64,000 nucleotides of DNA from Geothrix sp. (GCF_030219325.1 NZ_CP126625.1:2778857-2842856); one strand, 5' to 3'. Shown: positions 4,250 through 61,010, numbered from the stretch's first letter. Notes: generated by a model not told the origin, from the letters alone. Program-made: numbers and translations.

Positions 4250-4792
4250 ATGACGACATTGAAACGATTAATCCAGGGTCAGGACATAGCCTTCGATACC
4301 CACCAAGCAGGAGATGGGCAGGGCGTGAAGTGGCGCGAACTGCATCTTGAAAAACGCATGCACGAAGGAAGTGGAAAGGCTCGCTTCCCGTTCTTCGACC
4401 ATGCAAAGGCCTCCTCTTCAAGTCGAATGAGCGCAGACGCTCTTCAGGAGGTTACAAAAGAGGTGGGTCGGGTTCTTCAGAAAAATCCCGAATTAACAAA
4501 AAAACTTGGAAAAATTGTTGTCGAATCCCTGCAGAGATTCAGTGATGGAACAGCCACCATCGAGGACGGGAAAGCTGCAGCAAAACAATTAGCTGGGTAC
4601 TTTGATCTCGATGAAAATTTTCTACGCGTAGTTGAAGATTATTCAGAAGGCAGGCTGGTATCACTTAAGACAGTGCACATCGAGCCTCATGACAGAACCC
4701 TCCATGAAATTTATCAATCCCAAACCACTCTCGAGATACGCAAAGCTCGTCGCAACTACCCATTAAACATTATCCATCCAGATAGACACTGA
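4250..4792 (+). CDS. Cassette 1 hypothetical protein
   Basis: 180-residue protein with no family that I recognise. It is hydrophilic, has no signal peptide or membrane segment, and its middle part (residues 65-140) looks helical and charged, with the stretch KNPELTKKLGKIVVESLQRF. The first start, ATG 4250, lies 22 bp behind the recombination point, as expected for a cassette gene; an internal ATG at residue 60 is an alternative if the N-terminal part is not translated. Codon use is far more AT-rich than in flanking genes, consistent with transfer. The stop is 1 bp before the attC-like remnant. Confidence 0.6.
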   Translation: MTTLKRLIQGQDIAFDTHQAGDGQGVKWRELHLEKRMHEGSGKARFPFFDHAKASSSSRMSADALQEVTKEVGRVLQKNPELTKKLGKIVVESLQRFSDGTATIEDGKAAAKQLAGYFDLDENFLRVVEDYSEGRLVSLKTVHIEPHDRTLHEIYQSQTTLEIRKARRNYPLNIIHPDRH

Positions 4793-4793
4793 G

Positions 4794-4826
4794 ACCTAAC
4801 CCTCCGCTCAACTCTGGTCGATAGGC
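4794..4826 (+). repeat. Decayed or truncated attC-like site
   Basis: ACCTAAC followed by CCGCTCAAC resembles the left half (R'' and L'') of the better sites at 5381 and 5950. The right end is GATAGGC instead of GTTAGGY, and the whole is only 33 bp, too short for a functional attC. It probably marks the former boundary of cassettes 1 and 2. Confidence 0.4.
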
Positions 4827-4832
4827 AACCCC

Positions 4833-5366
4833 TTGTTTCCCACCCTGACTCTTAGTGTCCTTCTGGCCTTAGTCCCCCTTCAATCCAAGGGAGAAGTCAG
4901 GGCAATAGTCGGCCCTTGGAAAATCTCTGTACCAGAAGGGGTCATCCTGCTCATTAAGAAGGGGGATCAGTTTGGTGCCCTGAGGTTCTCCGCTGTCAAA
5001 CCCGACCAGGAGAAGGGCTGGGGATCAGCACAATTTGAATCAGCCTTCCAAGGGGATGGCAGTGGCTCCTTCTCGAGATCCAATATCCTGGTCGGGAAGG
5101 GAAAGGTCCACGCTAAATCCTTGGTCGGAATCGGCCGGGTGTCTTTCCAGGTTGGGCACACAACACTGAAGATTGGTCCATACAAGTTCTATTACAGCTT
5201 CCCAAACTGGGTAGACATGTGGCCAGCAGGAGAGCTTGCAGATGACTATGGCTTTGAATTCAGCCTGGTACAGGCCAAAGAATTTTCAGCAATCGATGTA
5301 ACCGCTCCATCGCTTAAATGGTATCGCTTCGATCAAAACAGGCGAATTGAAATCAATGTCCCTTAG
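4833..5366 (+). CDS. Cassette 2 secreted hypothetical protein
   Basis: 177-residue product with a likely signal peptide (LTLSVLLALVPLQSKG, residues 5-20) and a soluble, beta-rich remainder with many Gly, Ser and aromatic residues. I recognise no family. The only start that includes the signal sequence is TTG 4833, 12 bp after the decayed boundary; no good ribosome site precedes it, and no in-frame ATG lies near the 5' end, so the exact start is uncertain. AT-rich codon use matches the other cassette genes. It ends 14 bp before the next attC-like site. Confidence 0.55.
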   Translation: MFPTLTLSVLLALVPLQSKGEVRAIVGPWKISVPEGVILLIKKGDQFGALRFSAVKPDQEKGWGSAQFESAFQGDGSGSFSRSNILVGKGKVHAKSLVGIGRVSFQVGHTTLKIGPYKFYYSFPNWVDMWPAGELADDYGFEFSLVQAKEFSAIDVTAPSLKWYRFDQNRRIEINVP

Positions 5367-5380
5367 TCTTGCCTGGGCCT

Positions 5381-5428
5381 GCCTAACCCGCCGCTCAAGT
5401 CGGACCCGGTTAGCCTTGTTCGTTAGGT
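5381..5428 (+). repeat. attC-like site, short type
   Basis: GCCTAAC at 5381-5387 (R'') pairs with GTTAGGT at 5422-5428 (R'), and CCGCTCAAG next to R'' can partly pair with CTTGTTCG next to R'. The crossover would be after G5422. At 48 bp it is a little shorter than usual attC sites. Confidence 0.65.
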
Positions 5429-5465
5429 CGTATCACTTTCAGATTGGCAGTCTAAGGAGCAAACT

Positions 5466-5936
5466 ATGCGAGCCATTCTCATTTGGGCAATCGCGTCCTT
5501 GTCGGCGATTGCCGGTCCGCGTGAGGAATCCCTGCGATATAACTCTCGCTGCATTCGGGCTCATGCAGATGCCTACGATTACACCCCGTCCACAGCCCAA
5601 CGTGCTGCACTTGATGCGGTCTCACAAGACCCAAAAAGGGTTCAGGAACTGCTGATCGTCTACGTCAAAGAGAGCCTAGCTGATTTCCAGAATGGGGTTC
5701 GTCTTGGAGCTGCCAATTCAAAGCTCAAAGGTCTAGACTCAGCCACGAAGCGAGAACTTGTGACTTCATTTAAAAAGGACGCAACTAAATGCTCCGTCCT
5801 TTTGAAAGAGCTGCAATCTATCGATCTGATGGGCCTCATCACACCAGGAATACATTCAATCAAGGGGAAAGAGGGTGCCTGTCCTCACGACGTAGATGGG
5901 CGACTCAATATTGCGAAATTTAGAAAGCTCAAGTGA
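5466..5936 (+). CDS. Cassette 3 secreted hypothetical protein
   Basis: 156-residue protein with a short signal peptide (MRAILIWAIASLSAIAG) and a mature part with three cysteines (RYNSRC, DATKC, GACP) that could include a disulfide after export. No family is recognised. The start is well supported: AAGGAG lies 6 bp before ATG 5466, and the cassette boundary is 43 bp upstream. The middle is helical and charged (residues 55-110). The stop is followed 13 bp later by a long attC-like site. AT-rich codon use marks it as acquired. Confidence 0.65.
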   Translation: MRAILIWAIASLSAIAGPREESLRYNSRCIRAHADAYDYTPSTAQRAALDAVSQDPKRVQELLIVYVKESLADFQNGVRLGAANSKLKGLDSATKRELVTSFKKDATKCSVLLKELQSIDLMGLITPGIHSIKGKEGACPHDVDGRLNIAKFRKLK

Positions 5937-5949
5937 ACCCTCTCATGTG

Positions 5950-6073
5950 GCCTGACCCTCGGCTCAATCTGGGCCCCGCCTGCACTGCCTTCCGCTCTCT
6001 CTTGACATTTTGCCATCCCGGTTCCTCTCGTCGCCTCGGTGCAGGCGTGACTGCTTAGCTGCTTTCGTCAGGC
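5950..6073 (+). repeat. attC-like site, long type
   Basis: GCCTGAC (5950-5956) and GTCAGGC (6067-6073) are perfect reverse complements, and an inner pair CGCCTGCAC (5977-5985) / GTGCAGGCG (6039-6047) is also perfect. The 124-bp length is inside the known attC range. Its central part resembles the site at 7090-7212. Confidence 0.75.
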
Positions 6074-6206
6074 GCCCTCCATGGAGCAACGCATGGTTCA
6101 ACCCAAGAAACAAACAATTCGCAGCAATCTTTTGTACTTATATAGACAACTCGTTCACTAGAAATACTCCCCCAAAAATTCATGCAATCAACCTAAAGGG
6201 ATAAAT

Positions 6207-6521
6207 ATGTTTTGCTCTAAATGCGGAAATAAGATCGGCGATTCTGCCTCTTGGTGTGAAAATTGTGGAAATCAAACACAGTCTTCAATTCAATCCCAAG
6301 CAGGATTTGGCTATTCATTTTCGGCCATTGGTGCCTTGATCGGATTACTGATTGGCCTCATACGTGGGTATAAGGATTTCACAACATGGTGTCCGCGAGA
6401 TTATCCTGCCACATTCACCAAATTTATAGATTTCTCCTTCCAACCAGTAATAATTTTCGTACTCGCCTGTCTTGTTATTGGATTATTTATTGATAAAGTT
6501 ATTATAAAAGCTCTCAAGTAA
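6207..6521 (+). CDS. Zinc-ribbon membrane protein, cassette 4
   Basis: 104 residues. The N-terminus is a classic double-CxxC zinc ribbon (CSKCGNKIGDSASWCENCG), followed by a polar linker and two hydrophobic segments (about 37-53, FSAIGALIGLLIGLI, and 79-98, VIIFVLACLVIGLFI). The ribbon would sit in the cytoplasm. Such small zinc-ribbon plus membrane proteins are common but functionally undefined. AAGGGAT precedes the ATG. The DNA is the most AT-rich of the window. It shares a cassette with the GIY-YIG-like gene 45 bp downstream, without an attC between them, so the two move together and may act together. Confidence 0.7.
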   Translation: MFCSKCGNKIGDSASWCENCGNQTQSSIQSQAGFGYSFSAIGALIGLLIGLIRGYKDFTTWCPRDYPATFTKFIDFSFQPVIIFVLACLVIGLFIDKVIIKALK

Positions 6522-6566
6522 CCATAACTATTTAACCCAATTTGATGAAAAATGCCATGAGGGCAC

Positions 6567-7076
6567 ATGAATGATAAAACTTTGGTACAACCTTTAACGC
6601 TGGATAAATTTCATCGTGTACCGATGTCACTTACAAACCGGAATTGGTGGGTACCCGTTCCCAACATCACTGGATGGTATGCCATAGAGACAAACACGCC
6701 AGTATCCGTTCTTGCCAAATTACCACCGCCCAAGCCCGGAAAGCGTTATAACCTGGGTAACCGCATCAGAAACGCCTCGTTTTTGATCTCCGTTGGGTTG
6801 GCGATTCAACCGCTCACCGAATCAGCCAATTACATAGTTTATATAGGCGAACATGAAAATTTAAAATCACGGGCCCGAGAACATACACATGGCCACACAG
6901 GAACGGGCTGCCTTTGTCTAAGCGATTACCCTGAATTGTGGAAATATGATTGGGAATTTCTGTATATGGCTTGTTCGGAACATGCACCGACTAGTCAAGG
7001 AGACAAAGCCCTGCGCATTTTTCTTGAACAACGCTGGCGTGGTGAAAATACGTGGCCACTACTTTGTCACCAGTGA
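6567..7076 (+). CDS. GIY-YIG nuclease-like protein, cassette 4
   Basis: 169 residues. GWYAIET (residues 33-39) matches the GIY element and YIVYIGEHENLKSRAREH (about 90-107) the YIG element with the following Arg and His of the catalytic core; a Glu late in the protein (LEQRW) is in the expected region for the metal-binding Glu. The spacing between the two elements is longer than in minimal GIY-YIG domains, because of an inserted basic stretch at residues 47-70. GIY-YIG enzymes cut DNA in repair, restriction or homing; the substrate here is unknown. GAGGG lies just upstream of ATG 6567. AT-rich, cassette-borne. Confidence 0.7.
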   Translation: MNDKTLVQPLTLDKFHRVPMSLTNRNWWVPVPNITGWYAIETNTPVSVLAKLPPPKPGKRYNLGNRIRNASFLISVGLAIQPLTESANYIVYIGEHENLKSRAREHTHGHTGTGCLCLSDYPELWKYDWEFLYMACSEHAPTSQGDKALRIFLEQRWRGENTWPLLCHQ

Positions 7077-7089
7077 TCAATTCACGGGC

Positions 7090-7212
7090 GTCTAACCTCC
7101 TGCTCATCTTGAACCCGCATCCATGCCCTTCCGCTCTCTCTCAGTATGCCGCCATCTCGGCTCCGCTCGTCGCCTTGGCGCGGACGGGGCCGCTTTGCTT
7201 CCTTCGTCAGGC
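7090..7212 (+). repeat. attC-like site, long type
   Basis: GTCTAAC at 7090-7096 and GTCAGGC at 7206-7212 form the outer pair with two mismatches. The middle (CCTTCCGCTCTCTCT and GCTCGTCGCCT) closely follows the site at 5950-6073, so both are the same attC lineage. Crossover point after G7206. Confidence 0.65.
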
Positions 7213-7246
7213 TGTCCGGAAACCTTCAAGCCCAGGAGACGCTACG

Positions 7247-7597
7247 ATGCCCGCACGTGAGATCTCTAAGCTCCTGTTCACGACGGTCTACCCCCTGTAC
7301 CTGCAGAAAGCCGCGCGCAAGAACAGGACCAAGGAGGAAGTCGACACCATCATCTGCTGGTTGACAGGCTACACGCGCGAACAGCTGGCTCGACACACGA
7401 CTGCCAACATCGACTTTCAGACCTTTTTCGACCAAGCCCCCTTGATCCACCCGAACAGCTCTCACATCACGGGCCTTGTCTGCGGCGTTCGCGTGGAAGC
7501 CATTCAAGACCCCATGACCCAGAAGATCCGATACCTCGACAAGCTCATCGACGAGCTTGCCAAGGGCAGATCGATGGACAAGATCTTGCGCCAGTGA
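7247..7597 (+). CDS. DUF2200 family protein, cassette 5
   Basis: 116-residue cytoplasmic protein with the full DUF2200 pattern: VYPLYLQKAARKNRTKEEVD, then CWLTGYT, FFDQAP, GLVCGVRVE and the C-terminal KIRYLDKLIDELAKG. The family is widespread, usually single-copy and without known function. Its length equals the family norm, so it is intact. ATG 7247 follows AGGAGAC and lies 40 bp behind the recombination point. It is less AT-rich than the other cassette genes. There is no attC downstream; 80 bp further the convergent rsmI gene ends, so this is the right limit of the array. Confidence 0.85.
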   Translation: MPAREISKLLFTTVYPLYLQKAARKNRTKEEVDTIICWLTGYTREQLARHTTANIDFQTFFDQAPLIHPNSSHITGLVCGVRVEAIQDPMTQKIRYLDKLIDELAKGRSMDKILRQ

Positions 7598-7676
7598 CGA
7601 TCGGCCCACCAGACGACGGACTTGATCGCCTGCCGCCGACCCTCCCGCTCGGCCCGGACCCGCGCGCTGAGCGCGG

Positions 7677-8525
7677 TTACAGCTCCGCCGCGATGCGGTA
7701 CAGCTCGGAGGCCTGCACGCCCAGGTGCTTGGCCAGGGGCTTGACGGCCTCGCGCAGGGTCATGCCGCCTTCGCGGGCGGCGGCGAGGTAAGTCCTGGCC
7801 CAGTCCGGCAGGGCGCCGTGGAAGGCGGCCTCCACCTCCGTCACCACGCGCTTGGCGCTGGCCCCGGCCAGCACCAGCACCATCTCGCCGCGGTCCTCGC
7901 GGCCCAGTTGGGCCTTCACCTGGCTGGGGGTGCCGCGGTACCAGGTCTCGTGCAGCTTGGTCAGCTCGCGGCCCAGGGCCATCTCCCGGCCCGGCAGCAG
8001 CTCCTCCAGGTCCGACAGCGTCTCGTGGATGCGGTGGGGCGTCTCGAAAACCACCACCGTCTCCTCCTCGGCGCCCAGCTTCTTCAGCATGGTCTTCCGC
8101 GGCTCGCTGCGGTTGGGCAGGTAGCCCCAGAAGCTGAAGGCGTGGCAGGGCAGGCCCGAGGCCACCACCGCCAGCAGCACGGCGGAGGCCCCAGGCAGCA
8201 CCGTGACCTTGGCGCCCGCGGCGCGCGCCACCCGGGCGATCTCGAAGCCCGGATCGTTGATGCCGGGCATGCCCGCGTCGCTGCAGTAGGCCACGGTGCG
8301 GCCCGAACCCAGCTCCAGGCCCAGGCGCTCGAAGGCGGCGGCGCTGGCGTGGTCGTCGAAGCGCAGCAGGGGCTTGTCGATCTCCAGGTGCTTCAGCAGG
8401 CCGCCGGTGCGCCGCGTGTCCTCGCAGGCCACCAGGTCGGCCCCGGCCAGGGCCTCCTTCGCGCGATCCGTGAGATCGCCCAAGTTGCCGATGGGGGTGG
8501 GGACGAGGATCAAGTGGCCAGTCAT
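7677..8525 (-). CDS. rsmI: 16S rRNA 2'-O-methyltransferase RsmI
   Basis: 282-residue tetrapyrrole-methylase-fold enzyme that methylates the 2'-OH of C1402 in 16S rRNA using S-adenosylmethionine. The N-terminal signature LILVPTPIGNLGDLTDRA, the ACEDTRRTGGLL element and the GMPGINDPG loop are all present, and the length is typical. The C-terminal part (WARTYLAAAREGGMTLREAV) contains the small helical tail common in this family. ATG 8525 is 21 bp behind the stop of the GAF-domain gene, so the two are probably co-transcribed. The 3' end faces the cassette array. Confidence 0.95.
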   Translation of the reverse strand: MTGHLILVPTPIGNLGDLTDRAKEALAGADLVACEDTRRTGGLLKHLEIDKPLLRFDDHASAAAFERLGLELGSGRTVAYCSDAGMPGINDPGFEIARVARAAGAKVTVLPGASAVLLAVVASGLPCHAFSFWGYLPNRSEPRKTMLKKLGAEEETVVVFETPHRIHETLSDLEELLPGREMALGRELTKLHETWYRGTPSQVKAQLGREDRGEMVLVLAGASAKRVVTEVEAAFHGALPDWARTYLAAAREGGMTLREAVKPLAKHLGVQASELYRIAAEL

Positions 8526-49623: not shown

Positions 49624-49700
<77 letters not shown>

Positions 49701-49744
49701 AAACACCAGAAGGGGCCCTCACAGAGGGCCCTTTCTGGTGTTTT
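49701..49744 (+). terminator. Terminator after tRNA-Pro
   Basis: AAACACCAGAAGGGGCCCT pairs with AGGGCCCTTTCTGGTGTTT, giving a long GC-rich stem with a short loop and a TTTT end. It directly follows the CCA of the tRNA. Confidence 0.85.
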
Positions 49745-50124
49745 GACCCGTCATACCGAGAGGATTCGAACCTCCGAATGGGATTCCGGAGACGCGACTG
49801 AATGTCGCGTCGGAGGAAGACCGGCGGCTGGCGCAGCCAGACGCGTTCGAATCCGTGCCCTGGTGTGGCGGCGCCAAATACGGAGAACGAACCACTCAAT
49901 CCAGTGAAGGGCCCCTCACAGAGGGCCCCTTCTGATGTTTTGACCCATCGTTTCGAGAGGATTCGAACCTCAGGCCGGGAGTGCCCGGTTCGGCAGGATC
50001 ATCAGTGGTGCGGGCCTTGGTGCGCGCCACCGGTGCCCCGCGTAGCCCCCTCTTCCCAAAGGCGATCCCATGGTTTTTTAAAGGACCGCCCGGTCCCCCG
50101 GGGGTATCCTTCCGGTCAACCACC
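49745..50124. repeat. Repeated terminator and inverted T-arm fragments
   Basis: A second hairpin of the same design lies at 49903-49935 (GAAGGGCCCCTC ... GAGGGCCCCTTC, one internal mismatch). After each hairpin comes TGTTTTGACCC and an inverted copy of the tRNA-Pro T-arm, AGAGGATTCGAACCTC, at about 49758-49775 and 49955-49970. Between them are tRNA-like scraps (GGCGCAGCC near 49832, GTTCGAATCC near 49846) but no complete tRNA. About 150 bp before the next gene show nothing else. Confidence 0.7.
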
Positions 50125-51234
50125 ATGATCGACGTCGTTCAAGCCACTTTCCCGGACTGGAAGCGCTTTGCCGCCTTGCCCCGGCGCCTCTACGACGGGG
50201 ATGCGGCGTTCTCCCCGGTGCCCGATCCGGAATTGCGGGCGTGGTTCGCGGGGTCGCACCCCTGCTCGCCGTTCCTGCGCTTCCAGGCCTTCCTGGCCCG
50301 CCGCGGCGGGCGGACGGTCGGACGCTGCGCCGCCTTCATCAATGCACGACTCCCCGTGGATGGCGCCCCCCTCGGCACCCTCGGCCTCTACGAGTGCGAA
50401 GCGGACGACGCCGCGGCCGCGGCCCTCCTCGCCGGGGCCCAGGACTGGCTGCGGGAGCAGGGCTGCGCAATGGCCTGGGGCCCCATGAACGGCTCCATCT
50501 GGACCGGCTACCGCTTCCTGACTTCGGGCTCCGGTCACTCCACCTTCCACGGGGAACCCGCCCACAAGCCCTGGTACCCGGGCCAGTTCAGCGCCGCCGG
50601 CTTCAAGCCCATCCGGCGGTGGCACAGCCTCTTCCTCCCCCCTGCCGAGGCGCGACTGCTCCGGGACGATCAGGTCAGGCTCGCTGCCTCGGCCCGGGCC
50701 CGGGGCTTTCGCATCCGCCACCCGGACCCGGCACGGGTCGATGCAGAGCTGGCCTCCATCCACGCCATCATCGAGGACTCGTACACAAGTTTCCTGGGCT
50801 TCAGCTCCCTGGCCCCCGGAGAGTTCAGCGATCTGTACCGGGGCCTCACGGCCGTCTGGAACCCGGAGCTCATCCAGATCGCCGTGGATCCCCAGGGCCG
50901 GGACGTGGGCTTCAACATCGTCCTCCCGGATCCCGGGCGGGGCCTCCGCGCCATGCGGGGACGTTCCTCCCTCCTGGCCAGGCTGCGGTACCTCCTGGCG
51001 CGGGAGGCGAATCCCGCCCACGTCGACCTCTACCTGGGGATCCGGCGGGAGGCGGGCCACCTGGGCGTGGGTTCCCTGCTCACCCACGCCGCCTGCCACA
51101 ACGCCATCGAAGCGGAGGTTCCCTTCATCATCGCCCTGGTCGCCGAGGAGACGTCCTTCGCCTCGGTCGAAGCCCGCTTTCCCCACGTGGAGCGCCACGA
51201 GTACCACCTCTACGCCCGGAGCCTGGTCCCATGA
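50125..51234 (+). CDS. GNAT-like protein of the lipid-type operon
   Basis: 369 residues. The C-terminal half (about 215-365) looks like a GNAT acyltransferase fold (LGIRREAGHLGVGSLLTHAACHNAIEAE resembles the acyl-CoA pyrophosphate loop), and the N-terminal half may be a second, degenerate copy. No function is known to me for this family. The start, ATG 50125, follows a GGTATCC/CCGG stretch without a clear ribosome site. It is the first gene of a tightly coupled operon and overlaps the next gene by 4 bp, so it is likely to act in the same pathway. Confidence 0.6.
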   Translation: MIDVVQATFPDWKRFAALPRRLYDGDAAFSPVPDPELRAWFAGSHPCSPFLRFQAFLARRGGRTVGRCAAFINARLPVDGAPLGTLGLYECEADDAAAAALLAGAQDWLREQGCAMAWGPMNGSIWTGYRFLTSGSGHSTFHGEPAHKPWYPGQFSAAGFKPIRRWHSLFLPPAEARLLRDDQVRLAASARARGFRIRHPDPARVDAELASIHAIIEDSYTSFLGFSSLAPGEFSDLYRGLTAVWNPELIQIAVDPQGRDVGFNIVLPDPGRGLRAMRGRSSLLARLRYLLAREANPAHVDLYLGIRREAGHLGVGSLLTHAACHNAIEAEVPFIIALVAEETSFASVEARFPHVERHEYHLYARSLVP

Positions 51235-52136
51235 GCGCGGAGACGACCCTTCCCTACTTCGACCGCCACCGGAAGGCCATGGCCGAGGAGCGGGTGTTCG
51301 AAGCGTCCGCCATGGCCTTCCTCTACGGCAGCGCGCTGGGCCGCCTCCTCACGGAGCTCATCCTCAAGCGCCGGGCCTTTTCGCGCTGGTACGCCTGGCG
51401 GTGGAACCGGCCCGCCAGCCGCCGACAGATCCGCCCCTTCATCGAGCGGTACGGGATCGATGCGGAGGAATTCGAGTCGCCGGTGGAGGCGTTCATGTCC
51501 TTCAACGACTTCTTCACCCGCCGCCTGAAGCCCGAGTGCCGCCCCATCGCCCCCGGGAAAGCCACCCTCATCGCGCCGGCGGATGCGAAGCTGCTGGCGC
51601 ACCCCTGTGCCCAGGGCCGGGCCTACCCGGTCAAGGGACGCGCCTTCAGCCTCGCCGCCCTGACGGGACATGGCCTGGACACCGCCGCCTGGGAAGGCGG
51701 GACCCTCCTCGTGTTCCGGCTCAGCCCGGCGGACGCGCATCGCTTCGTGTACTTCGATTCCGGGACGCATGGCCCCGTGCACCGCGTACCCGGCTTCTTC
51801 CACTCGGTATCCCCCATCTCGCTGGCGGCCGGCTCCGATGTCTTCGGGGGCAATGAGCGGGAGTGGACGGTGCTGGAGACCGACCATTTCGGGCAGGTCA
51901 TCCAGGTCGAGGTGGCGGCCCTCACGGTGAATGGCATCGTCCAGAACCATCCTGCGGGAACTGCCTTCCGGCGCGGGGAGGAGAAGGGCCACTTCGCGTA
52001 CGGATCGACCCTCGTGCTCGTCTTCCAGCCGGGCCGCCTCCGGCTGGACGAGGACATCCTGGCCCACTCCGCGACGGGACTCGAATCCGGTGTCCGCTGC
52101 GGCAGCGCCCTCGGCTCAGCGGGAGGCACCCCATGA
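51231..52136 (+). CDS. psd: Phosphatidylserine decarboxylase-like protein
   Basis: 301 residues. The family blocks FNDFFTRRLKPECRPI, IAPADAKLLAHP, LLVFRLSPADAHRFVYFDSG and the C-terminal YGSTLVLVFQPG are present. The last one is the GST motif where self-cleavage makes the pyruvoyl Ser. PSD removes CO2 from phosphatidylserine to give phosphatidylethanolamine; homologs in archaea act on archaetidylserine. The substrate here is uncertain, because the neighbours include a DUF46 and a UbiA protein. ATG overlaps the GNAT-like gene. Confidence 0.85.
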   Translation: MSAETTLPYFDRHRKAMAEERVFEASAMAFLYGSALGRLLTELILKRRAFSRWYAWRWNRPASRRQIRPFIERYGIDAEEFESPVEAFMSFNDFFTRRLKPECRPIAPGKATLIAPADAKLLAHPCAQGRAYPVKGRAFSLAALTGHGLDTAAWEGGTLLVFRLSPADAHRFVYFDSGTHGPVHRVPGFFHSVSPISLAAGSDVFGGNEREWTVLETDHFGQVIQVEVAALTVNGIVQNHPAGTAFRRGEEKGHFAYGSTLVLVFQPGRLRLDEDILAHSATGLESGVRCGSALGSAGGTP

Positions 52137-52726
52137 CGGCAGCCACCCTGGCGAGGCTCCTCTACCTCATGGCCCCCATCATCCTGGCGGGCATCTGCAA
52201 CATGGCCTACGTGAAGCTGCCCCTCCACGGCCGCCTCCGCGTGCCCATGGATGGCGGCCGGCGCTGGCGCGATGGGGCCCGGATCTTCGGCGACAACAAG
52301 ACCTGGAAGGGCTTCCTGGGCATGATCGCCTTCGCCTCCGTCTGGTTCTCGCTCCAGGCCGCCCTGGACGCCACCCTCCCCGGGGCGCGGGCCCTGTCCC
52401 TGGTGCCCTTCGCATCCTTCCCACCCCGGCTCGTGCCCGTGCTCGGGGCGCTCTGGGGCCTGGGCTACGTCCTGGCCGAGCTCCCGAACAGCTTCATGAA
52501 GCGCCGCCTGGGCGTCCGGCCCGGCGCCAATGTCCCGGGCTTGCGGGGAGCCCTCTTCCTGCTGATCGACCAGGGCGATTCCGTCCTCGGGTGCCTGGTG
52601 GCCCTGCGCCTCTTCTACCCGTACGGGTGGCGCACGGGGCTCCTGCTCCTGCTCATCGGCACCGGCGTGCACCTCGCCGTGAATGCGGTCCTCTACCTGG
52701 TGGGTCTCAGGAAGCAGGCGGCCTAG
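52133..52726 (+). CDS. carS: CDP-archaeol synthase-like (DUF46) membrane protein
   Basis: 197-residue membrane protein with four to five helices. FGDNKTWKGFLG matches the G-x-KTWxG signature of CDP-diglyceride synthases, and AELPNSFMKRRLGVRPG plus IDQGDSVLG match the CarS/DUF46 subgroup. In archaea CarS activates unsaturated archaetidic acid with CTP. Similar bacterial proteins exist with unproven substrates, so carS is used only for homology. It overlaps the PSD-like gene by 4 bp and abuts the next gene (TAG then ATG). Confidence 0.8.
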   Translation: MTAATLARLLYLMAPIILAGICNMAYVKLPLHGRLRVPMDGGRRWRDGARIFGDNKTWKGFLGMIAFASVWFSLQAALDATLPGARALSLVPFASFPPRLVPVLGALWGLGYVLAELPNSFMKRRLGVRPGANVPGLRGALFLLIDQGDSVLGCLVALRLFYPYGWRTGLLLLLIGTGVHLAVNAVLYLVGLRKQAA

Positions 52727-55336
52727 ATGAAGCTCATTCATGACTTCACGGAACTCCTGGCCGACCCCCTGCCACCTGCGGAGCTCGGCGGGAAGGCCAG
52801 GGGTCTGCTGGAGCTGCTGACCTGGGGCTTGCCCGTCCCCCCCGGCGCCGTCCTTCCGGCCTCCGCCTTCCGGCGGTTCCTGGCTGAGACCGGAATCGCC
52901 GCCACGACCCCGGGCGAAGGGGCGTCCCCGGCGGAGGTCTGCGATCACTGGCGGGGGCTCATCCTGGCGGCCGCGCCTCCACCCTGGCTCGACGGGGCGG
53001 TCCGGGCCTGGGTGTCGGCCCATCCTGGGCAGAGCTGGGCCGTCCGTTCCAGCGCCATCCAGGAGGACCTGCCCGGGCATTCCTTCGCCGGCCAGTACTC
53101 CAGCTTCCTGCACCAGGTCACGGTCGAGCAGATCACCCGGTCCATCCTGGCCTGCTGGGCCTCCCTGTACAACCCGGGCGCCGTGAGCTACTGCCAGGAA
53201 CGGGGACTCCCGCTGGAATCCTCGGCCATGGCCGTCATCCTCCAGCGCATGGTGCGGGCGGACCACAGCGGCGTGCTGTTCACGGTCGATCCCATCGGCG
53301 GCAGAGACACGGTGATGCTCGTGGAAGCCGTCCACGGCCTCGGCGAGAGCCTCGTCCAGGGCCGGGTGACCCCGGATTGCTACCGCTTCGACTGGTTCGC
53401 GGGCCGGGAGGTCGAGCGGAGCGTGGCCCGCAAGGAATGGAAGGTGGCCTGCGCAGACGGTGGGGGCGTCATGGAAGGGCGCCTCGATCCGAAGCTGGCG
53501 GAGGCTCCCGTGCTGTCCCCAGAGGCGCTGGGCCAGCTCTGCGGCGCGGCCCTCGACATCCAGCGCCGCAGCGGCTACCCGGTGGACATCGAGTGGGCCT
53601 TCGCCGAGGGGACCCTCCACATCCTGCAGAGCCGGCCCGAGACGCGCATCCACGTCCGCGACCTGGAAGGCGAGTGGACCACGGCGGACTTCAAGGACGG
53701 GGGCGTGTCCTCCACGGTCTGCACGCCCTTCATGTGGGCCCTCTACGACCTGGTCTGGGAACGGGCCATGCCCGAATACCTGCGCTCCGTGCGAATGATC
53801 GATGCCGTGGAAGGGATCGTCTGGGGGGACATGTTCTTCGGGCGGCCCTACTGGAACGTCGGCATCATCAAGACCTGCCTCGAGCGCCTGCCCGGCTTCA
53901 CGGAGCGCCACTTCGATGCGGACCTGGGCATCGAGCCGGCCTACGCGGGAGAGGGACGCACCTCCCGGCTGGGCCTTGGCAGCCTGTGGCGGGCCCTCCG
54001 GGTCGTCCTGGCGCTGAAGCGCTCATTCCAGGCCGAACTGGAAGCCTGTGAGGCCTTCCGAGCCCGGCAGCTGGCGAGGCTGCGGGAGCTGGACGGCCTG
54101 GACCTGCACAGCCTGGACGAGCAGGCCTTCTTCGCCTTCTACTGGACCTTCATCGAGCAGGACTTCTTCCGCAGCGAGTACGCCTACTTCCACCTCATCT
54201 TCAACAACAGCAACTTCCAGAGCCTGTACAAGGGCGAGCTGCAGAAGCAGGGCGCCGACATCCTCCTGCTCCTGTCGGGCCTGCAGGAACTCTCCCACCT
54301 CCAGCCGAACTACCGGCTGTGGGAGCTCTCGCGACAGCTGCGGACCTCCCCCGGCGCCTGCGCCTATTGGCGGGACACCCCCCTCCTCCGCATTTCCGAA
54401 GCCCTGCGCTCCGGTGAGCCGGGCCCGGGCTTCGAGGAACTGCGCGCCCACATCGAAGCCTTCAAGTTCCATTCGACCCGGGAGCTGGACATCCGGGTGC
54501 CCCGGCTGGACGAGGACCCCTCCCAGGTCCTCTCCAGCCTCCGGCAGCTCATCGACCTCGACGACGCCCACTCGCCGCAGGACCACACGGCCGCCCAGTC
54601 CCTGGCGGCGGAACAGGAGCGGCAGCGCTTCATCGAGTCCCTGCCGCCCTGGAAACGGAAGGCCTCGGCGCGGAAGATCGAGCGCATGCGCCGCTTCCTC
54701 TGGTGGCGGGAGGAATACCGCGACCTGTCCACCCGGCACTACCACCTCGTCCGGAAGGTCACGCTGCACCTGGCCGGACGGCTCCTGGAAGGGGGCTGGC
54801 TGGCCACCGCCGAGGATGTCTTCTTCCTCGACCTGGCGGACCTGTTCGGCCTCCTGGACGGGCGCGCGACCCGAACGGACGTCAAGGAACGCATCCGCCT
54901 CCACCGCGCCTACTACGACTCCTTCCGGAACTTCCAGAACCCGGATGAGCTGGGCCGGGGTCGGGACTTTCAGCCCGGCGGGATGAGCCGGCAGGCCGGT
55001 GAGGGCGCCCTCACCGGCCTGCCCTGCAGCCCCGGCCAGGCCGAAGGCCCCGCCCGCCTCATCGCCGACATCTTCGAGGCGGACCGCCTCGCCCAGGGCG
55101 ACATCCTCCTCACCCGGTACACCGACCCGGGCTGGACCCCCTGCTTCGGCCTCATCGCCGGGGTGGCGACGGAGACCGGCGGCCTGCTCTCCCACGCGGC
55201 CGTGATCTCCCGGGAGTACGGCATCCCGGCGGTGCTGGCGGTGAAGGGCCTGCTGTCTGCGGCGGCCGGCGCCCAGCGCGCCAGCCTCGATGGGCACGCG
55301 GGGCAGGTCCGCTTCGATGAGGGGGGACCGCGATGA
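52727..55336 (+). CDS. PEP synthase/rifampin-phosphotransferase-like protein A
   Basis: 869 residues in three parts: an N-terminal PPDK-type ATP-binding domain (WAVRSSAIQEDLPGHSFAGQ, ILQRMVRADHSGVLFTVDP, VDIEWAFAEGTLHILQSRP), a long middle domain without recognisable family, and a C-terminal swivelling phosphohistidine domain with His823 in GGLLSHAAVISRE. The layout is that of rifampin phosphotransferase and of short PEP synthases: a two-step transfer of a phosphate through the His. There is no PEP-binding TIM barrel. The acceptor is unknown. Starts directly after the DUF46 gene. Confidence 0.8.
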   Translation: MKLIHDFTELLADPLPPAELGGKARGLLELLTWGLPVPPGAVLPASAFRRFLAETGIAATTPGEGASPAEVCDHWRGLILAAAPPPWLDGAVRAWVSAHPGQSWAVRSSAIQEDLPGHSFAGQYSSFLHQVTVEQITRSILACWASLYNPGAVSYCQERGLPLESSAMAVILQRMVRADHSGVLFTVDPIGGRDTVMLVEAVHGLGESLVQGRVTPDCYRFDWFAGREVERSVARKEWKVACADGGGVMEGRLDPKLAEAPVLSPEALGQLCGAALDIQRRSGYPVDIEWAFAEGTLHILQSRPETRIHVRDLEGEWTTADFKDGGVSSTVCTPFMWALYDLVWERAMPEYLRSVRMIDAVEGIVWGDMFFGRPYWNVGIIKTCLERLPGFTERHFDADLGIEPAYAGEGRTSRLGLGSLWRALRVVLALKRSFQAELEACEAFRARQLARLRELDGLDLHSLDEQAFFAFYWTFIEQDFFRSEYAYFHLIFNNSNFQSLYKGELQKQGADILLLLSGLQELSHLQPNYRLWELSRQLRTSPGACAYWRDTPLLRISEALRSGEPGPGFEELRAHIEAFKFHSTRELDIRVPRLDEDPSQVLSSLRQLIDLDDAHSPQDHTAAQSLAAEQERQRFIESLPPWKRKASARKIERMRRFLWWREEYRDLSTRHYHLVRKVTLHLAGRLLEGGWLATAEDVFFLDLADLFGLLDGRATRTDVKERIRLHRAYYDSFRNFQNPDELGRGRDFQPGGMSRQAGEGALTGLPCSPGQAEGPARLIADIFEADRLAQGDILLTRYTDPGWTPCFGLIAGVATETGGLLSHAAVISREYGIPAVLAVKGLLSAAAGAQRASLDGHAGQVRFDEGGPR

Positions 55337-56265
55337 CCCCTTCCCCGAGGCGCCTGTGGCTCTACCTGTCCACCACCTACCCGCCCCTGCTCACGGCGCC
55401 CTTCGCGGCCATCAGCTACCTCGCCCTGGCCTGGTCCCTGCTCGCCGCCCGGGGCCTCCCGCCCCGCCTGGGACGAGCCACCCTGGCGGGCATTCTCGGG
55501 ACCTTCCTCTTCCTGCTCTTCCTGCGCGTCTCGGACGAGCTCAAGGATTCCGAATCCGACAAGATCCACTTCCCGGAACGCCTCCTGCCTTCGGGGCGGA
55601 TCACTCCGGGCGACCTGTGGCTCCTGTGGTGGGTGGCGCTCGCGGGGCTGATCGGCGTCCAGCTGCTCGTCCCCCGGCTCAACGGGTACTACCTCGCCCT
55701 GCTCATCTACGGCCTGCTGATGTTCAGGTACTTCTTCCTGCCCCGGCTCATCACCAGCCATCTGTTCCTGGCCCTCCTGAGCCACAATCCGTCGGCCTTC
55801 CTGCTGCAGCTCTGCGCGCTGGGATGGCTGGGCGCGGACCCGGGGTTGCCATCCCCCTTCGTGGCCCGGCGCGGGGACCTCCTGATCTGCCTGCTCTTCT
55901 ACCTGCCGGCGCTCCTGTGGGAGCTTTCGCGGAAGCTCCGCCGGCCCTCCGAGGAAACGCAGTACCAGACCTATTCGTCGCTGCTCGGTCCCCGCCGCGC
56001 AGCGCTCCTGACCCTGACCGTGGCCCTGGGCATGCTGGGTCTGGTGGTGGCCTTGGGCCCGCGCCTCGGCACCTCGATCCTGGCCCTGGCGGCGCAGATG
56101 GCGGCCTTCCTCCTGTTCGCCGGCGCCCTCCTGCGCTTCATCATCCAGCCGGAAGCCGATGGCCCGAAGCTCGGCATGGTCGGGCAGGCCTACGCCATCG
56201 CCTTCTACGCCATCGCCTTCTGCGACCTGGCCCTGCGCGGACCCCGCGCCGGCGGGATGGGGTAG
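55333..56265 (+). CDS. UbiA-family prenyltransferase
   Basis: 310-residue integral membrane enzyme with about eight helices. The first Asp-rich region LRVSDELKDSESDKIHFPERLLPSGRIT corresponds to the NDxxDxxxD motif with changes, and the second Asp motif is around YQTYSSLLG, less clear. UbiA enzymes attach prenyl chains to aromatic or lipid acceptors; archaeal members make digeranylgeranylglyceryl phosphate. The acceptor here is not known. Overlaps the preceding gene by 4 bp (ATGA) and is followed 3 bp later by another PEP-synthase-like gene. Confidence 0.85.
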   Translation: MTPSPRRLWLYLSTTYPPLLTAPFAAISYLALAWSLLAARGLPPRLGRATLAGILGTFLFLLFLRVSDELKDSESDKIHFPERLLPSGRITPGDLWLLWWVALAGLIGVQLLVPRLNGYYLALLIYGLLMFRYFFLPRLITSHLFLALLSHNPSAFLLQLCALGWLGADPGLPSPFVARRGDLLICLLFYLPALLWELSRKLRRPSEETQYQTYSSLLGPRRAALLTLTVALGMLGLVVALGPRLGTSILALAAQMAAFLLFAGALLRFIIQPEADGPKLGMVGQAYAIAFYAIAFCDLALRGPRAGGMG

Positions 56266-56268
56266 GCC

Positions 56269-58956
56269 GTGGACTGGCGCCTGCTCGACCCCCGCGACGA
56301 GCTTCGCGTGGAGGCCTGCGGGGGCAAGGCCCTGGGGCTGGCGAGGCTCGGAGCCGCGGGCCTGCCCGTACCCGACTGGTTCTGCCTTTCCGCCGACACC
56401 TTCCGGCGCGCCCTGGGGCCCGCCCTCGGGGACTTCCATGCCGGACTGGCCGCCGCGTCGCCGGAGGACCGATCGGGCCTGGAGGCCCTCTGCGCGCGCG
56501 GGCGAGCCGCGGTGGATGCGCTGGTCCTGCCGCCGGACGCCCTCCGCGGCGCGGCCCTGGAGCACCTGCCGGGAGCGGACCTGTTCGCGGTACGCTCCTC
56601 GGCCTGCGTGGAGGATTCTCCCGAAGCCAGCTTTGCCGGCCAGCTGCAGTCCTTCCTCTGCGTCCCGGCCGAGGGCCTGGAGCAGGCCGTCCTGGCCTGC
56701 TGGCGGAGCTACTTCAGCGCCGGCGCCGCGAGGTACCGGCTCCATCACGGCCTCGGGGCTGCGGCCCCCGGCATGGCGGTCATCCTCCAGCGCATGGTGG
56801 AAGCGCAGGTCTCGGGCATCGCCTTCTCCGTCAGCCCCGACGGCAACCTGGGGGAGCTGCTCCTGAGCGCCACCTACGGCCTCGGTCCCGGGGTCGTCTC
56901 GGGGGAGTTCGAGACGGACCTCATCCGGATCGACCGGCGGAGCGGCGCGATCCGGTCCACCCAAGCCGTGAAGGCCGAGCGCCTCGTGAAGGACGCCGCC
57001 GCGGGCCGGGGCCTGCGCCGGGAGCCGGTGCCGGAGGCACTGCGCCGGGCGCCCTGCCTGGGCCCGGAGCAGGTGGCTGAGCTGGCCGGTCTCTGCCTGC
57101 GGGCCGAGCGGGCCCTGGGGGACTGGGTGGACCTGGAGTGGGCCTTCGACACCCGGTTCCACCTGCTGCAGGCCCGGCCCATCACCGCCCTGCCCGCGGG
57201 GGAGATCCACCTCCTGGACAACAGCAACATCGTCGAGAGCTATCCCGGGATCTCCGCGCCGCTCACCTTCGCCTTCGTCCAGCAGGCCTACGCGCGCATC
57301 TTCCGCAACTTCGCCCTCCGACTGGGCCTCCGGGCGGCGGAGCTGGACCGCAGCGCCGCCCACCTGGACCAGATGGTCGTCCACTTCCAGGGGCGCATCT
57401 ATTACAGCCTGGAGAACTGGTACGCCCTCTTCTCGCTCCTGCCCTTCGCGTCGCGCTTCATCCCCATCTGGGAGGGCATGCTGGGCATCCGCGCCGCGGA
57501 AGGGGCTCCGGGCGGCCCCGGCCTCGCCACCCGCCTCCTCGCAGGTCCGCGGGCGCTGCGCATCGGGCTTCGCCTGCTGGGCGAGTTCCTGCGCCTGCGC
57601 CGCTCGATGGCTGCGCTGCTGGCGCGCTTCGAAGCGCTCAAATCGAATTTCGACGCGCGCCTCCAGACCGCTTCCCGGGGGGGCCTCGATGCGCTGCGGT
57701 CCCTCTACGACGACCTGGGCGCCCGCATGGTGGACGGCTGGGAGCTCACGCTCATCAACGACGGCTTCGCCTTCCTGTTCACGGCTCTGGCCCAGTGGTC
57801 CCTGCGCCGCCTCCTCCCGCCGGAGGCGGCCCTCGAGGCGTTCAACGGCCTGCTCTGCGGTCTGGCGGGCATGGCGAGCCTCCAGCCCGCCCGGGAAGCC
57901 ATCCGCCTCGGGGAGCGGCTCCAGGATCATCCGGGCCTGCTCGCCGCGGCCCTGGCCGCCGCCGAGGCCCGGCTGGACCGGCTGCCGGCTGATGCCGCCA
58001 CTTCACCGGAAGAGGCCTCGGCCATCGCAGACTTCAACACGGCGTTGGCTGACTACCTCCAGCGCTGCGGCTCCCGGACCTTCGAGGAACTCAAGCTGGA
58101 ACGGCCCAGCCATGCCGAGGCCCCCTGGCTGCTGCTCCGCCAGGTCGCGGCCTGCGCCAGCCAGGGCCTGCGCGCCGCGGACATGGAGGCCCGCGAGGCC
58201 GCCATCCGCGCCCGGGCGGAGGGCCTGCTCGCCAGCGCCGGGCCCCGTCCAGTGACACGAGTCGTCTTCTCGTTCTGCCTGGCGCGGGCCAAGGCCTCGA
58301 TCCTCCACCGGGAAGCCAGCCGCCTGAAGCGCGGCGAGTTCTACCGCATGGTCCGGCGGATCTTCCTGGCCGCCGGGGAGCGCCTGGCCCAGGAGGGTCT
58401 CCTCCACCAGGTCGACGACATCTTCTACCTGACGGTGGACGAGGCCTTCGGCGCGGCCACCCTCGGCGCAACCGCGCTCGAAGCGAAGGTCGCCACCAGG
58501 CGGGCCGAGCAGTCAGCCCAGGCGGCCCTGTCCCCGCCGGAGCGGATCGTCTGGAAGGGCAGCCTGGCCGAAGCCGAGCGGGTCCTGGCCACGACTCTGG
58601 GCGAGCCGGGATCCGGGGCCGGGGACGCGGCTGGATTCACCCTCTCCGGCCTGGGTTGCGCACCGGGCCAGGTCAGCGGCGGGGCCCTGGTGGTGGCGGA
58701 TCCCGGCACGGTCACGGACGCCAGGGGAAAGGTCCTGGTGGCGCGGATGACGGACCCCGGCTGGGTGTTCCTCATGCTCCAGGCCCGGGGGCTCATCGTG
58801 GAGAAGGGCAGCCTGCTCTCGCACACCGCCATCATCGGCCGGGAGCTGGGCCTGCCGACCCTCGTGGGTGTCACGGACGCCGCCCGGCGGATCCGGAGCG
58901 GCGATCAGCTCAGCCTGGACTCGGGCCGCGGCACCGTCACGGTGCGACGGGGCTGA
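56269..58956 (+). CDS. PEP synthase/rifampin-phosphotransferase-like protein B
   Basis: 895 residues with the same three-part layout as the protein at 52727: N-terminal ATP-grasp-like domain (FAVRSSACVEDSPEASFAGQ, VILQRMVEAQVSGIAFSVSP, DLEWAFDTRFHLLQARPIT), a helical middle (IVESYPGISAPLTFAFVQQAY) and a C-terminal domain with His852 in GSLLSHTAIIGREL. The two are diverged paralogs. GTG 56269 starts 3 bp after the UbiA stop. The 3' end overlaps the convergent ABC gene by 20 bp. Two different dikinase-like steps in one operon are unusual. Confidence 0.8.
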   Translation: MDWRLLDPRDELRVEACGGKALGLARLGAAGLPVPDWFCLSADTFRRALGPALGDFHAGLAAASPEDRSGLEALCARGRAAVDALVLPPDALRGAALEHLPGADLFAVRSSACVEDSPEASFAGQLQSFLCVPAEGLEQAVLACWRSYFSAGAARYRLHHGLGAAAPGMAVILQRMVEAQVSGIAFSVSPDGNLGELLLSATYGLGPGVVSGEFETDLIRIDRRSGAIRSTQAVKAERLVKDAAAGRGLRREPVPEALRRAPCLGPEQVAELAGLCLRAERALGDWVDLEWAFDTRFHLLQARPITALPAGEIHLLDNSNIVESYPGISAPLTFAFVQQAYARIFRNFALRLGLRAAELDRSAAHLDQMVVHFQGRIYYSLENWYALFSLLPFASRFIPIWEGMLGIRAAEGAPGGPGLATRLLAGPRALRIGLRLLGEFLRLRRSMAALLARFEALKSNFDARLQTASRGGLDALRSLYDDLGARMVDGWELTLINDGFAFLFTALAQWSLRRLLPPEAALEAFNGLLCGLAGMASLQPAREAIRLGERLQDHPGLLAAALAAAEARLDRLPADAATSPEEASAIADFNTALADYLQRCGSRTFEELKLERPSHAEAPWLLLRQVAACASQGLRAADMEAREAAIRARAEGLLASAGPRPVTRVVFSFCLARAKASILHREASRLKRGEFYRMVRRIFLAAGERLAQEGLLHQVDDIFYLTVDEAFGAATLGATALEAKVATRRAEQSAQAALSPPERIVWKGSLAEAERVLATTLGEPGSGAGDAAGFTLSGLGCAPGQVSGGALVVADPGTVTDARGKVLVARMTDPGWVFLMLQARGLIVEKGSLLSHTAIIGRELGLPTLVGVTDAARRIRSGDQLSLDSGRGTVTVRRG

Positions 58957-59617
58957 GCCGACCTTCCTGCAACGACAGCACGCGGTCGGCGAGCTCCGCC
59001 AGCCGCGTGTCATGGCTGGTGACGATGGCGGTGCGGCCCCCTTCGCGGATGTACTCGTGGAGCATGCGGATCACCTCCTGGCCCTGGTGGAACTCCAGGC
59101 TGGCCGTGGGCTCGTCCGCCAGGATCAGGCCTGGCGAGGGCCCGAAGGCGCGGGCCGCGGCCACGCGCTGCTTCTCGCCATGACTCATGGTCGCGGCGCG
59201 GCACTCGCCGAGGTGGGGGATGCCCAGGCTCAGGAAGACCTCCCGGCTCCGCTGGGCGGCGGGCCCGGCCTTCCAGCCCGCGAAGCGCAGGGCCAGCTCG
59301 GCGTTCTCGCGGCCCGTCAGGGATTCGATGAGCAGGAAATTCTGGAAGATGAAGCCGATGTTCCGGGCCCGCAGGGTCTGCAGCTCATCCGGGTGCAGGC
59401 CGCCGAGGTCCCGCCCGAAGAGGCGCACCTGCCCGCTGGAGGGCGGGGTCAACCCCGCAAGGGTGGTGAGCAGGGTCGTCTTCCCGCTCCCGCTGGGCCC
59501 CAGGACGAGGACGATCTCGCCGGCCTCCGCCTGGAAGTCCACGCGGTCCAGGACCAGCCGCCGGCCCTCGCCCTCGCCGAACTGCCTGGAGACGCCTGCG
59601 AGTTCCACCACGGCCAT
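58937..59617 (-). CDS. ABC transporter ATP-binding protein, LolD/MacB-like
   Basis: 226-residue ATPase. Walker A is LGPSGSGKTTLL, the signature is MSHGEKQRVAAARAF, Walker B is LILADEPTASLE. MSHGEK rather than LSGGE is the unusual variant. It groups with the LolD/MacB/FtsE type that acts with FtsX-like permeases and does not translocate across the bilayer. I start at ATG 59617, which leaves the permease stop 1 bp away. The 3' end overlaps the plus-strand gene by 20 bp; this is unusual but both reading frames are well supported. Confidence 0.9.
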   Translation of the reverse strand: MAVVELAGVSRQFGEGEGRRLVLDRVDFQAEAGEIVLVLGPSGSGKTTLLTTLAGLTPPSSGQVRLFGRDLGGLHPDELQTLRARNIGFIFQNFLLIESLTGRENAELALRFAGWKAGPAAQRSREVFLSLGIPHLGECRAATMSHGEKQRVAAARAFGPSPGLILADEPTASLEFHQGQEVIRMLHEYIREGGRTAIVTSHDTRLAELADRVLSLQEGRLSPVAP

Positions 59618-59618
59618 G

Positions 59619-60731
59619 TCAGTCCCCCCTGGCCCGGAAGGCTTCAAGGGCGTAGAAGCCCGCGATGCGGCGCGTGGCGACCAGGGCGCTGGCCAGGCAG
59701 ATCACCAGGACGCCGGCCAGCACGAGGGCCATCTGCGCCGGATAGACCTGGGTCTCCAGCTCCGGCGCCAGAACGCGCACCAGGGCCCGCAGCGGCAGGA
59801 AGAGGGCCAGCCCCAGGCCGCCGCCGCAACCCCCGAGCAGCAGGGCCTTCGCCGCCACCAGGCCCCGCAGGTAGCTGCGCGGCGCGCCCAGGGCCTTCAT
59901 GATCACGAAGTCCCGGCGGCGCTCCAGGATGTCCAGCGACAGCAGCAGCGCCAGGATGACGGCGAGCACCAGAGCGCCCATGAGCGTGATGATGAAGAGG
60001 AAGGCCAGGAAGCCCGTCTGCATCTCCAGCACGTTGTTCTCGATGAACTGGGCGTCCGAGAAGAAGTTCATCTCGGGTTGGGCCGCACGCAGGGCCTGCA
60101 GGACCGCCGGTACCGTCTCGCCCGGCCCGATCCGGATCGCCACGAAGGAGATGAGTCCCGGCAGCTGGATGAAGCCCTGGGCCCGCTCCAGGCTCACGAA
60201 GGCGTACTGGATGACCATGGCGTTGGTGCCGCGGCTCAGGCCCACCACCTGCAGCGGCACGCCCTGGATCTCCAGGGTCTGGCCCAGGACCAGATGGTGT
60301 TTCCGGGCGAACACCTCGTCCAGCACGATTTCGTCATCGCCCGCGAGGGCCCTTCCCGCCGCGATGATGGGCGGCCCTCCCGTCGGCGCCTCGCGCCGGT
60401 AGCCCGTGAGGAAGAGGGTGTAGAAGCGCCCCTGCAGCTTCACGGACGAGAGCAGCAGCAGCACGGGCGAGGCCGAGGCCACGGCTTTCGTCTCCAGGAC
60501 CGCCTGGCCCTCCTCCAGGGTCATGATCGAGGAGCCGCGGATGATGTTGGTGGCGTTGGCCTGCAGCATCCAGATGTCGGCGCGGGTGCGGCGGATGTAA
60601 TCCACGGCCCCCGCGTTGACGCTCTGGTAGGTGGCCCACAGGAACACCATCATCAGCGTGCAGGCGCCGATGGCCGCCACGGTCATGGCGAACCGTCCGA
60701 CCTCGCCCAGCAGGGGGTTCCGGATCCGCAT
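59619..60731 (-). CDS. FtsX-like ABC transporter permease
   Basis: 370-residue membrane protein with the FtsX/MacB layout: an N-terminal helix (about 14-35), a periplasmic domain of 200 residues and three C-terminal helices (residues 245-370, including FLFIITLMGALVLAVILALLLSL). The periplasmic part has no domain that I can name. It probably moves or extracts a lipid or lipoprotein and is encoded first in a two-gene operon with the ATPase. ATG 60731 is selected since the hydrophobic helix follows closely. A link to the convergent lipid-type operon is only suggested by position. Confidence 0.8.
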   Translation of the reverse strand: MRIRNPLLGEVGRFAMTVAAIGACTLMMVFLWATYQSVNAGAVDYIRRTRADIWMLQANATNIIRGSSIMTLEEGQAVLETKAVASASPVLLLLSSVKLQGRFYTLFLTGYRREAPTGGPPIIAAGRALAGDDEIVLDEVFARKHHLVLGQTLEIQGVPLQVVGLSRGTNAMVIQYAFVSLERAQGFIQLPGLISFVAIRIGPGETVPAVLQALRAAQPEMNFFSDAQFIENNVLEMQTGFLAFLFIITLMGALVLAVILALLLSLDILERRRDFVIMKALGAPRSYLRGLVAAKALLLGGCGGGLGLALFLPLRALVRVLAPELETQVYPAQMALVLAGVLVICLASALVATRRIAGFYALEAFRARGD

Positions 60732-61010
60732 GGCCCAGTGTAGCCACTGGCAGGCGCAACCCCCTGCCCATTGAACCTTCCGCGATGGCCGTGGGCGCAT
60801 CCAGTCGGCGGATTCGAGGGACGGGGTCCTTGCCCTGAGGCCAGCGTGCGTCAATCTGGGCCGGCATTCTCGGGGTCCCAGGAATCAGGCAGAACCCCTT
60901 GAAGGGCCGGTTACCATCGGGGTCTCCTCCCTTCATGAACGGAATGTCCTGCCTCTGGATCACGCATGCATCCGGCTCCCCCTCTTTCCCCTCGAGGTGT
61001 CCGCCCTGAG
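60732..61010. other. Intergenic region between divergent genes
   Basis: About 280 bp between the ABC permease and the sensor kinase, divergently transcribed, so both promoters lie here. I see no clear -35/-10 pairs, repeats or hairpins. Confidence 0.5.

Follow-up and report, generated by a model that had tools for sequence, protein, structure and literature searches.

A rare lipid-type operon in Geothrix with two predicted RPH-type dikinases and a UbiA-superfamily protein

The archaeal glycerophospholipid pathway (GGGPS, DGGGPS, CarS, ASS, ASD and GGR) builds its head group from a CDP-lipid by the addition of serine and subsequent decarboxylation. Dikinases that carry an ATP-binding domain and a phosphohistidine domain are known from phosphoenolpyruvate (PEP) synthesis (PpsA), from resistance, in the case of rifampicin phosphotransferase (RPH; structures 5fbs, 5fbt and 5fbu), and from prodigiosin synthesis (the PigC and RedH ligases); RPH, PigC and RedH have the first domain at the N-terminal end and the second at the C-terminal end of about 870 amino acids, without a PEP/pyruvate barrel. 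Here we describe an operon in a stretch of 64,000 nucleotides from Geothrix sp. (Holophagaceae; GCF_030219325.1, NZ_CP126625.1:2778857-2842856), hereafter the window. Like the archaeal pathway, it encodes members of the UbiA, CarS and phosphatidylserine decarboxylase (PSD) families and follows a similar head-group logic, but it adds two dikinases and a GNAT-like protein.

In a preliminary description, this locus had been read as an archaeal ether-lipid enzyme set joined to phosphotransfer enzymes. The observation is confirmed and its interpretation is supported in part: this is a real and uncommon lipid-type operon, and not the archaeal pathway. We tentatively favour the view that it makes an undescribed polar amino-lipid, probably with an isoprenoid part, by a mobile six-step route through UbiA, the dikinases, CarS, PssA, PSD and the GNAT-like protein.

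The operon and its conservation in Geothrix

Six plus-strand open reading frames (ORFs) span positions 50125-58956 of the window as one overlapping set (Table 1). The junctions, read in the sequence, agree exactly with the earlier account of 4-bp overlaps or separations of at most 3 bp: there are ATGA overlaps of 4 bp at 51231 (GNAT/PSD) and 52133 (PSD/CarS), a 0-bp gap at 52726/52727 (CarS/dikinase 1), a 4-bp overlap at 55333 (dikinase 1/UbiA), and a 3-bp gap at 56266-56268 (UbiA/dikinase 2).

All six genes are found in the same order on contig JANYAZ010000259.1 (L013) of a Geothrix metagenome-assembled genome, at 69-80% identity and with dN/dS of 0.24-0.35; the operon is under purifying selection. 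The contig also has the same ABC exporter downstream and similar post-tRNA sequence upstream. Because the whole set, its order and its flanks recur under purifying selection, the arrangement is not due to chance. Of the earlier interpretation, a dedicated lipid-type operon with phosphotransfer enzymes as a true part is supported.

Table 1 Features of the operon and its flanks (positions in the window).
Feature	Positions	Strand	Length or remark
GNAT-like / YghO-type N-acyltransferase-like protein, P0001	50125-51234	+	369 aa
Divergent second PSD homologue, P0002 (predicted)	51231-52136	+	301 aa
CarS-like CTP:lipid-phosphate cytidylyltransferase homologue, P0003	52133-52726	+	197 aa
Dikinase 1, predicted RPH-type, P0004	52727-55336	+	869 aa
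UbiA-superfamily membrane protein, PRK13592-like (predicted), P0005	55333-56265	+	310 aa
Dikinase 2, predicted RPH-type, P0006	56269-58956	+	895 aa
tRNA-Pro(GGG), upstream flank	49624-49700	+	
DevA/FtsX-like ABC exporter pair, downstream flank	58937-60854	-	convergent to operon

The encoded proteins

The two large proteins are best read as RPH-type dikinases, with ATP-binding and phosphohistidine domains and the catalytic His but without the barrel. Both match Pfam PPDK_N (E = 2e-67 for P0004 and 3e-54 for P0006) and PEP-utilizers (2e-19 and 2e-20), and no PEP/pyruvate-binding barrel is among the Pfam matches of either. Their best structural relative is 5fbs (E = 1.7e-69 and 3.6e-50), which we take to be the Listeria RPH although its entry name reads 'phosphoenolpyruvate synthase'. 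Both proteins match it at both ends, whereas their middle domains, presumably the substrate region, differ and do not align. They share with PpsA an annotated family name and the ATP and His domains; they lack its TIM barrel and score far under equivalog cut-offs, with 254.8 and 200.9 bits against 739.75 for the PEP synthase model TIGR01418. The missing barrel rules out a true PEP synthase. The scores are also far under the RPH, RedH and PigC cut-offs, and the dikinases sit in a lipid operon, unlike these enzymes of resistance and prodigiosin synthesis.

The phosphohistidine motif LLSHAA is kept in P0004, and His852 and the ATP-site residues of P0006 are invariant across nine relatives. With just 30% identity between them, P0004 and P0006 are not a recent duplication. 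P0006 is the copy closest to the UbiA-adjoining dikinases of other genomes (31-36% identical).

The membrane protein P0005 falls just below the curated cut-off of Pfam UbiA (E = 3e-8, 33.6 bits against 34.2). The sole NCBIfam model it matches is NF010118 (PRK13592-like; E = 1.4e-43); among the NCBIfam models, no DGGGP synthase (DGGGPS) matched at E<=1e-3 and no MenA, UbiA or MqnP quinone prenyltransferase matched. The previous assignment to the DGGGPS family thus holds for the superfamily and not for the family, and P0005 is predicted to be a PRK13592-like protein. Its first Asp motif is kept as DELKDSESD (DExxDxxxD). The best PDB match of the P0005-family profile is the DGGGP synthase 6m31 (E = 1e-5); an AlphaFold model from a two-sequence alignment (pLDDT 46) was too poor to judge. 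A menaquinone or heme role is ruled out by dedicated genes elsewhere in the genome, a UbiA/MqnP-type quinone prenyltransferase (L107) and a heme O synthase homologue. Separately, one Geothrix ORF (L110:397-2115) reads like IspH in its N-terminal half and matches PF01040 UbiA in its C-terminal half, a possible IspH-UbiA fusion.

The PSD and CarS (DUF46) families named at the outset are present, with Pfam scores over cut-off and motifs kept. P0002 matches PS_Dcarbxylase (PF02666; E = 1.4e-44, 152.6 bits against 22) and retains the GST self-cleavage motif of the proenzyme, as YGST; a housekeeping PSD encoded elsewhere in the genome is about 30% identical to it. P0003 matches the CarS-like family PF01864 (E = 3.6e-15, 56.8 bits against 22) and aligns with the CDP-archaeol synthase 5guf (E = 1.5e-7), with KRRLG and DQ.D motifs in common.

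P0001 has no Pfam match of its own. Its description as GNAT-like is nevertheless fair, since 13 of 16 aligned relatives match Acetyltransf_1 (PF00583); the family profile matches GNAT structures weakly (E = 0.002), one plasmid relative carries a YghO annotation, and an AlphaFold model from a two-sequence alignment was unusable (pLDDT 42). The UbiA/dikinase clusters of the acidobacterium G286 and of Roseinatronobacter include relatives of P0001 (E = 6.5e-18 for the latter). The family is common in Acidobacteriota (109 of 396 genomes) and is therefore not specific to this operon.

The dikinase-UbiA pair in other genomes and the operon flanks

UbiA relatives at E<1e-30 occur in four of the 396 acidobacterial genomes, namely that of the window, G050, G025 and G286, and in all four a dikinase directly adjoins the UbiA gene. 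The query profile was built partly from the sequences of the first three, which makes G286 the independent case. The pair is also adjacent on a plasmid of Roseinatronobacter sp. S2 (Rhodobacterales) and in Streptomyces clavuligerus; every one of these loci with a strong UbiA relative has an adjoining dikinase. We found no description of the pair in the open-access literature.

The partners of the pair are repeatedly lipid head-group genes: CarS with PSD, CarS with a CDP-alcohol transferase, or BtaA/DUF3419 with GNAT and an AMP ligase. In G025 the order is fatty-acid desaturase, CarS, dikinase, UbiA (short, with a degenerate motif 2), methyltransferase, PlsC-like acyltransferase, fatty-acyl AMP ligase, carrier protein/thioester reductase (with a kinase-like domain) and CDP-alcohol phosphatidyltransferase. 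In G286, GNAT, AMP ligase, UbiA and dikinase face HMG-CoA reductase, DUF3419/BtaA and a membrane protein (the last three at L086:3305-6805). The Roseinatronobacter plasmid (NZ_CP121116) carries UbiA, dikinase, DUF3419, membrane protein, GNAT and AMP ligase, and genes for glycosyltransferases lie upstream, beyond the point where the record begins; all six gene types are shared with G286, across two phyla. This cluster resembles the Geothrix operon in its UbiA, dikinase and GNAT relatives and in having a head-group enzyme, but it has a BtaA-type homoserine-ether head group where Geothrix has PSD, and a larger membrane protein where Geothrix has CarS. The membrane proteins of G286 and Roseinatronobacter (33% identical over 243 aa) have no significant Pfam match and look dolichol/phytol-kinase-like by eye, from an RKLVH motif alone.

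Other clusters carry butenolide-type genes. In S. clavuligerus (NZ_CP065235) the order is AfsA, ICMT, dikinase, UbiA and oxidoreductase; in S. durmitorensis (NZ_CP097290) it is AfsA, ICMT, nitroreductase and dikinase; and in G050 it is TetR, KASIII/AfsA, ICMT, epimerase, dikinase and UbiA. The Streptomyces clusters share with Geothrix a dikinase about 33% identical over nearly its full length, and in S. clavuligerus, as in Geothrix, a UbiA-like gene adjoins; AfsA stands where the Geothrix operon has CarS, PSD and GNAT. The AfsA-dikinase clusters may resemble the salinipostin type. The KASIII-AfsA fusion protein beside the TetR gene of G050 (L014:4611-6473) may represent butenolide signalling in a bacterium other than an actinomycete.

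The survey of gene neighbours thus shows that parts of the operon module recur in other phyla. A plasmid search with the window CarS and UbiA proteins gave no matches. No homologue of the dikinase, PSD or UbiA lies near the short CarS homologues of G254, G241, G217, G147 and G088, and most of the weak acidobacterial CarS matches (frames of about 300 aa) look CdsA-like from their length and matched region. Several acidobacteria encode CarS-like proteins of about 165 aa (L061:9542-10027, L062:9676-10161, L060:9628-10134 and L063:781-1266); each of these four genes forms a conserved pair with an adjoining gene for about 310-340 aa, which looks alike in all four and whose product has an 'LGKVHARQRLG'-type start.

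Within Geothrix, the operon UbiA is found in only two of 47 genomes; the second (G404, 73% identical) may be the same genome as the L013 contig. Inverted fragments of the tRNA-Pro 3' end lie between the tRNA and the operon, at 49757-49777 and 49954-49976, a possible integration scar. This setting fits acquisition, and the operon was probably acquired horizontally and is sporadically distributed. The interval 49624-49980 also holds a duplicated 75-nt hairpin block, with copies 85% identical and 197 nt apart. Both Geothrix have the ABC exporter pair next to the operon; it was not observed in any other cluster and is probably not core. Elsewhere in the window, positions 4001-8000, flanked by MFS and RsmI-like genes, are low in GC (52% against about 67%), carry small ORFs, one of which (6567-7076) reads by eye like a GIY-YIG nuclease, and have no Rfam match; this is likely a small acquired island.

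A candidate pathway and its alternatives

In the pathway that we favour, the UbiA-fold protein would first attach an alkyl chain, probably a prenyl one, to a small acceptor. Phosphate from ATP, carried as phosphohistidine on a domain that swings, would then be transferred to this intermediate, or to its acceptor, by at least one of the two RPH-type dikinases; their catalytic residues are in place, and they would do the work of a lipid kinase. CarS, with its family and motifs intact, would turn the lipid phosphate and CTP into a CDP-lipid. The housekeeping PssA (phosphatidylserine synthase), encoded elsewhere in the genome (126 bits against a cut-off of 107), would add serine, and the operon PSD, likewise true to its family and motif, would decarboxylate the product to an ethanolamine head. 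Finally, the GNAT-like protein may N-acylate the new amine, because GNAT co-occurs with amine-bearing head groups in both PSD-type and BtaA-type clusters. We infer the order of these steps, the prenyl transfer by UbiA, and the action of the dikinases on lipid or acceptor.

Supporting this pathway are the operon, its conservation, the protein families and catalytic motifs, and the recurrent adjacency of dikinase and UbiA with lipid head-group genes. With PssA present, the steps from CDP-lipid through phosphatidylserine to phosphatidylethanolamine (PE) are all encoded, so that a CDP-lipid from CarS could serve PssA first and the operon PSD next. Since PssA, a second PSD and an MqnP/UbiA-type prenyltransferase lie elsewhere, the operon is not a housekeeping set. 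A prenyl chain in the product is plausible; the strongest hint of an isoprenoid comes from the HMG-CoA reductase gene of the G286 cluster, and the fatty-acyl reductase system of G025 hints instead at alkyl chains.

Several observations weigh against the pathway. The substrates of all of its enzymes are predicted from sequence. The second Asp motif of P0005 is replaced by ELSRK..P..E (ExxRK..P..E), and without the usual motif the protein may not use a prenyl diphosphate. P0002 and P0003 score under their NCBIfam equivalog cut-offs (276 bits against 371 for PRK00723; 76.3 against 148 for PRK04032) and so appear to be divergent family members. GGGP synthase (GGGPS; PF01884) had no matches in the Geothrix genome while archaeal positive controls matched, and the best match to geranylgeranyl reductase (GGR; TIGR02032) reached 36.6 bits against 158.8; the earlier search plan for lipid genes elsewhere therefore yielded PssA and neither of these. 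The pair is not confined to membrane lipids, as its neighbours in Streptomyces and G050 are butenolide-type genes (AfsA/KASIII) and not those for phospholipids, and the S. durmitorensis dikinase stands with AfsA and has no annotated adjoining UbiA. Because such AfsA contexts exist, the dikinase-UbiA chemistry would be a more general tailoring module, a step that may be common to butenolide-type and lipid products.

These contexts also bear on a second explanation, which we consider somewhat unlikely: that the cell secretes the product, an amphiphilic natural product or signal of the butenolide or phospho-lipid type and not a membrane lipid. Dikinase and UbiA would tailor its acyl or prenyl intermediate, its polar part would come from CarS, PSD and GNAT, and the ABC exporter would pump it out. 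This idea is consistent with the AfsA, ICMT-like methyltransferase and KASIII genes that neighbour the dikinases of S. clavuligerus, S. durmitorensis and G050 (where TetR is present too), with the sporadic spread and with the exporter retained in both Geothrix. However, the Geothrix operon has no AfsA, KASIII, polyketide synthase or regulator, CarS and PSD belong to membrane-lipid head-group synthesis, and the exporter is a convergent, separate unit.

Remodelling of ordinary phospholipid is improbable. In that case the second PSD and CarS would raise the output of PE or N-acyl-PE, with UbiA and the dikinases working for a quinone or another prenyl compound that the same operon makes. Most bacterial PSDs act on ordinary diacyl phospholipid and a CarS homologue may too; both proteins are divergent from the archaeal enzymes, and GNAT could make N-acyl-PE. 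Yet the genes are interleaved in a single, translationally coupled operon, homologues of UbiA (quinone-type) and of heme O synthase are already encoded elsewhere, and unrelated genomes combine the pair with different head-group genes.

Archaeal-type isoprenoid ether phospholipids, with UbiA as DGGGP synthase, CarS as CDP-archaeol synthase and PSD as archaetidylserine decarboxylase, are highly improbable, and the strict form of that route is ruled out: the alignment of CarS with 5guf, the 6m31 match and the weak matches of Roseinatronobacter and S. clavuligerus UbiA relatives to DGGGPS models are outweighed by the missing PcrB/GGGPS and GGR and by a UbiA of another subfamily with an altered motif 2, the dikinases and GNAT are left unexplained, and the archaeal enzyme set claimed at the outset does not hold.

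A bolder form of the polar amino-lipid pathway, and an unlikely one, would be a new isoprenoid amino-phospholipid whose phosphate comes from RPH-type dikinases and not from a kinase or G1P chemistry, by a pathway spread across phyla with exchangeable PSD, BtaA and CDP-alcohol modules; if true, it would be a separate route across the lipid divide. If the amino-lipid pathway itself is right, a class of enzymes with known parts in PEP synthesis, the inactivation of antibiotics and prodigiosin ligation gains a role in polar-lipid synthesis, and UbiA, dikinase, CTP-transferase and head-group enzyme together would form a small, testable gene set for finding new lipids in Acidobacteriota, Rhodobacterales and Streptomyces.

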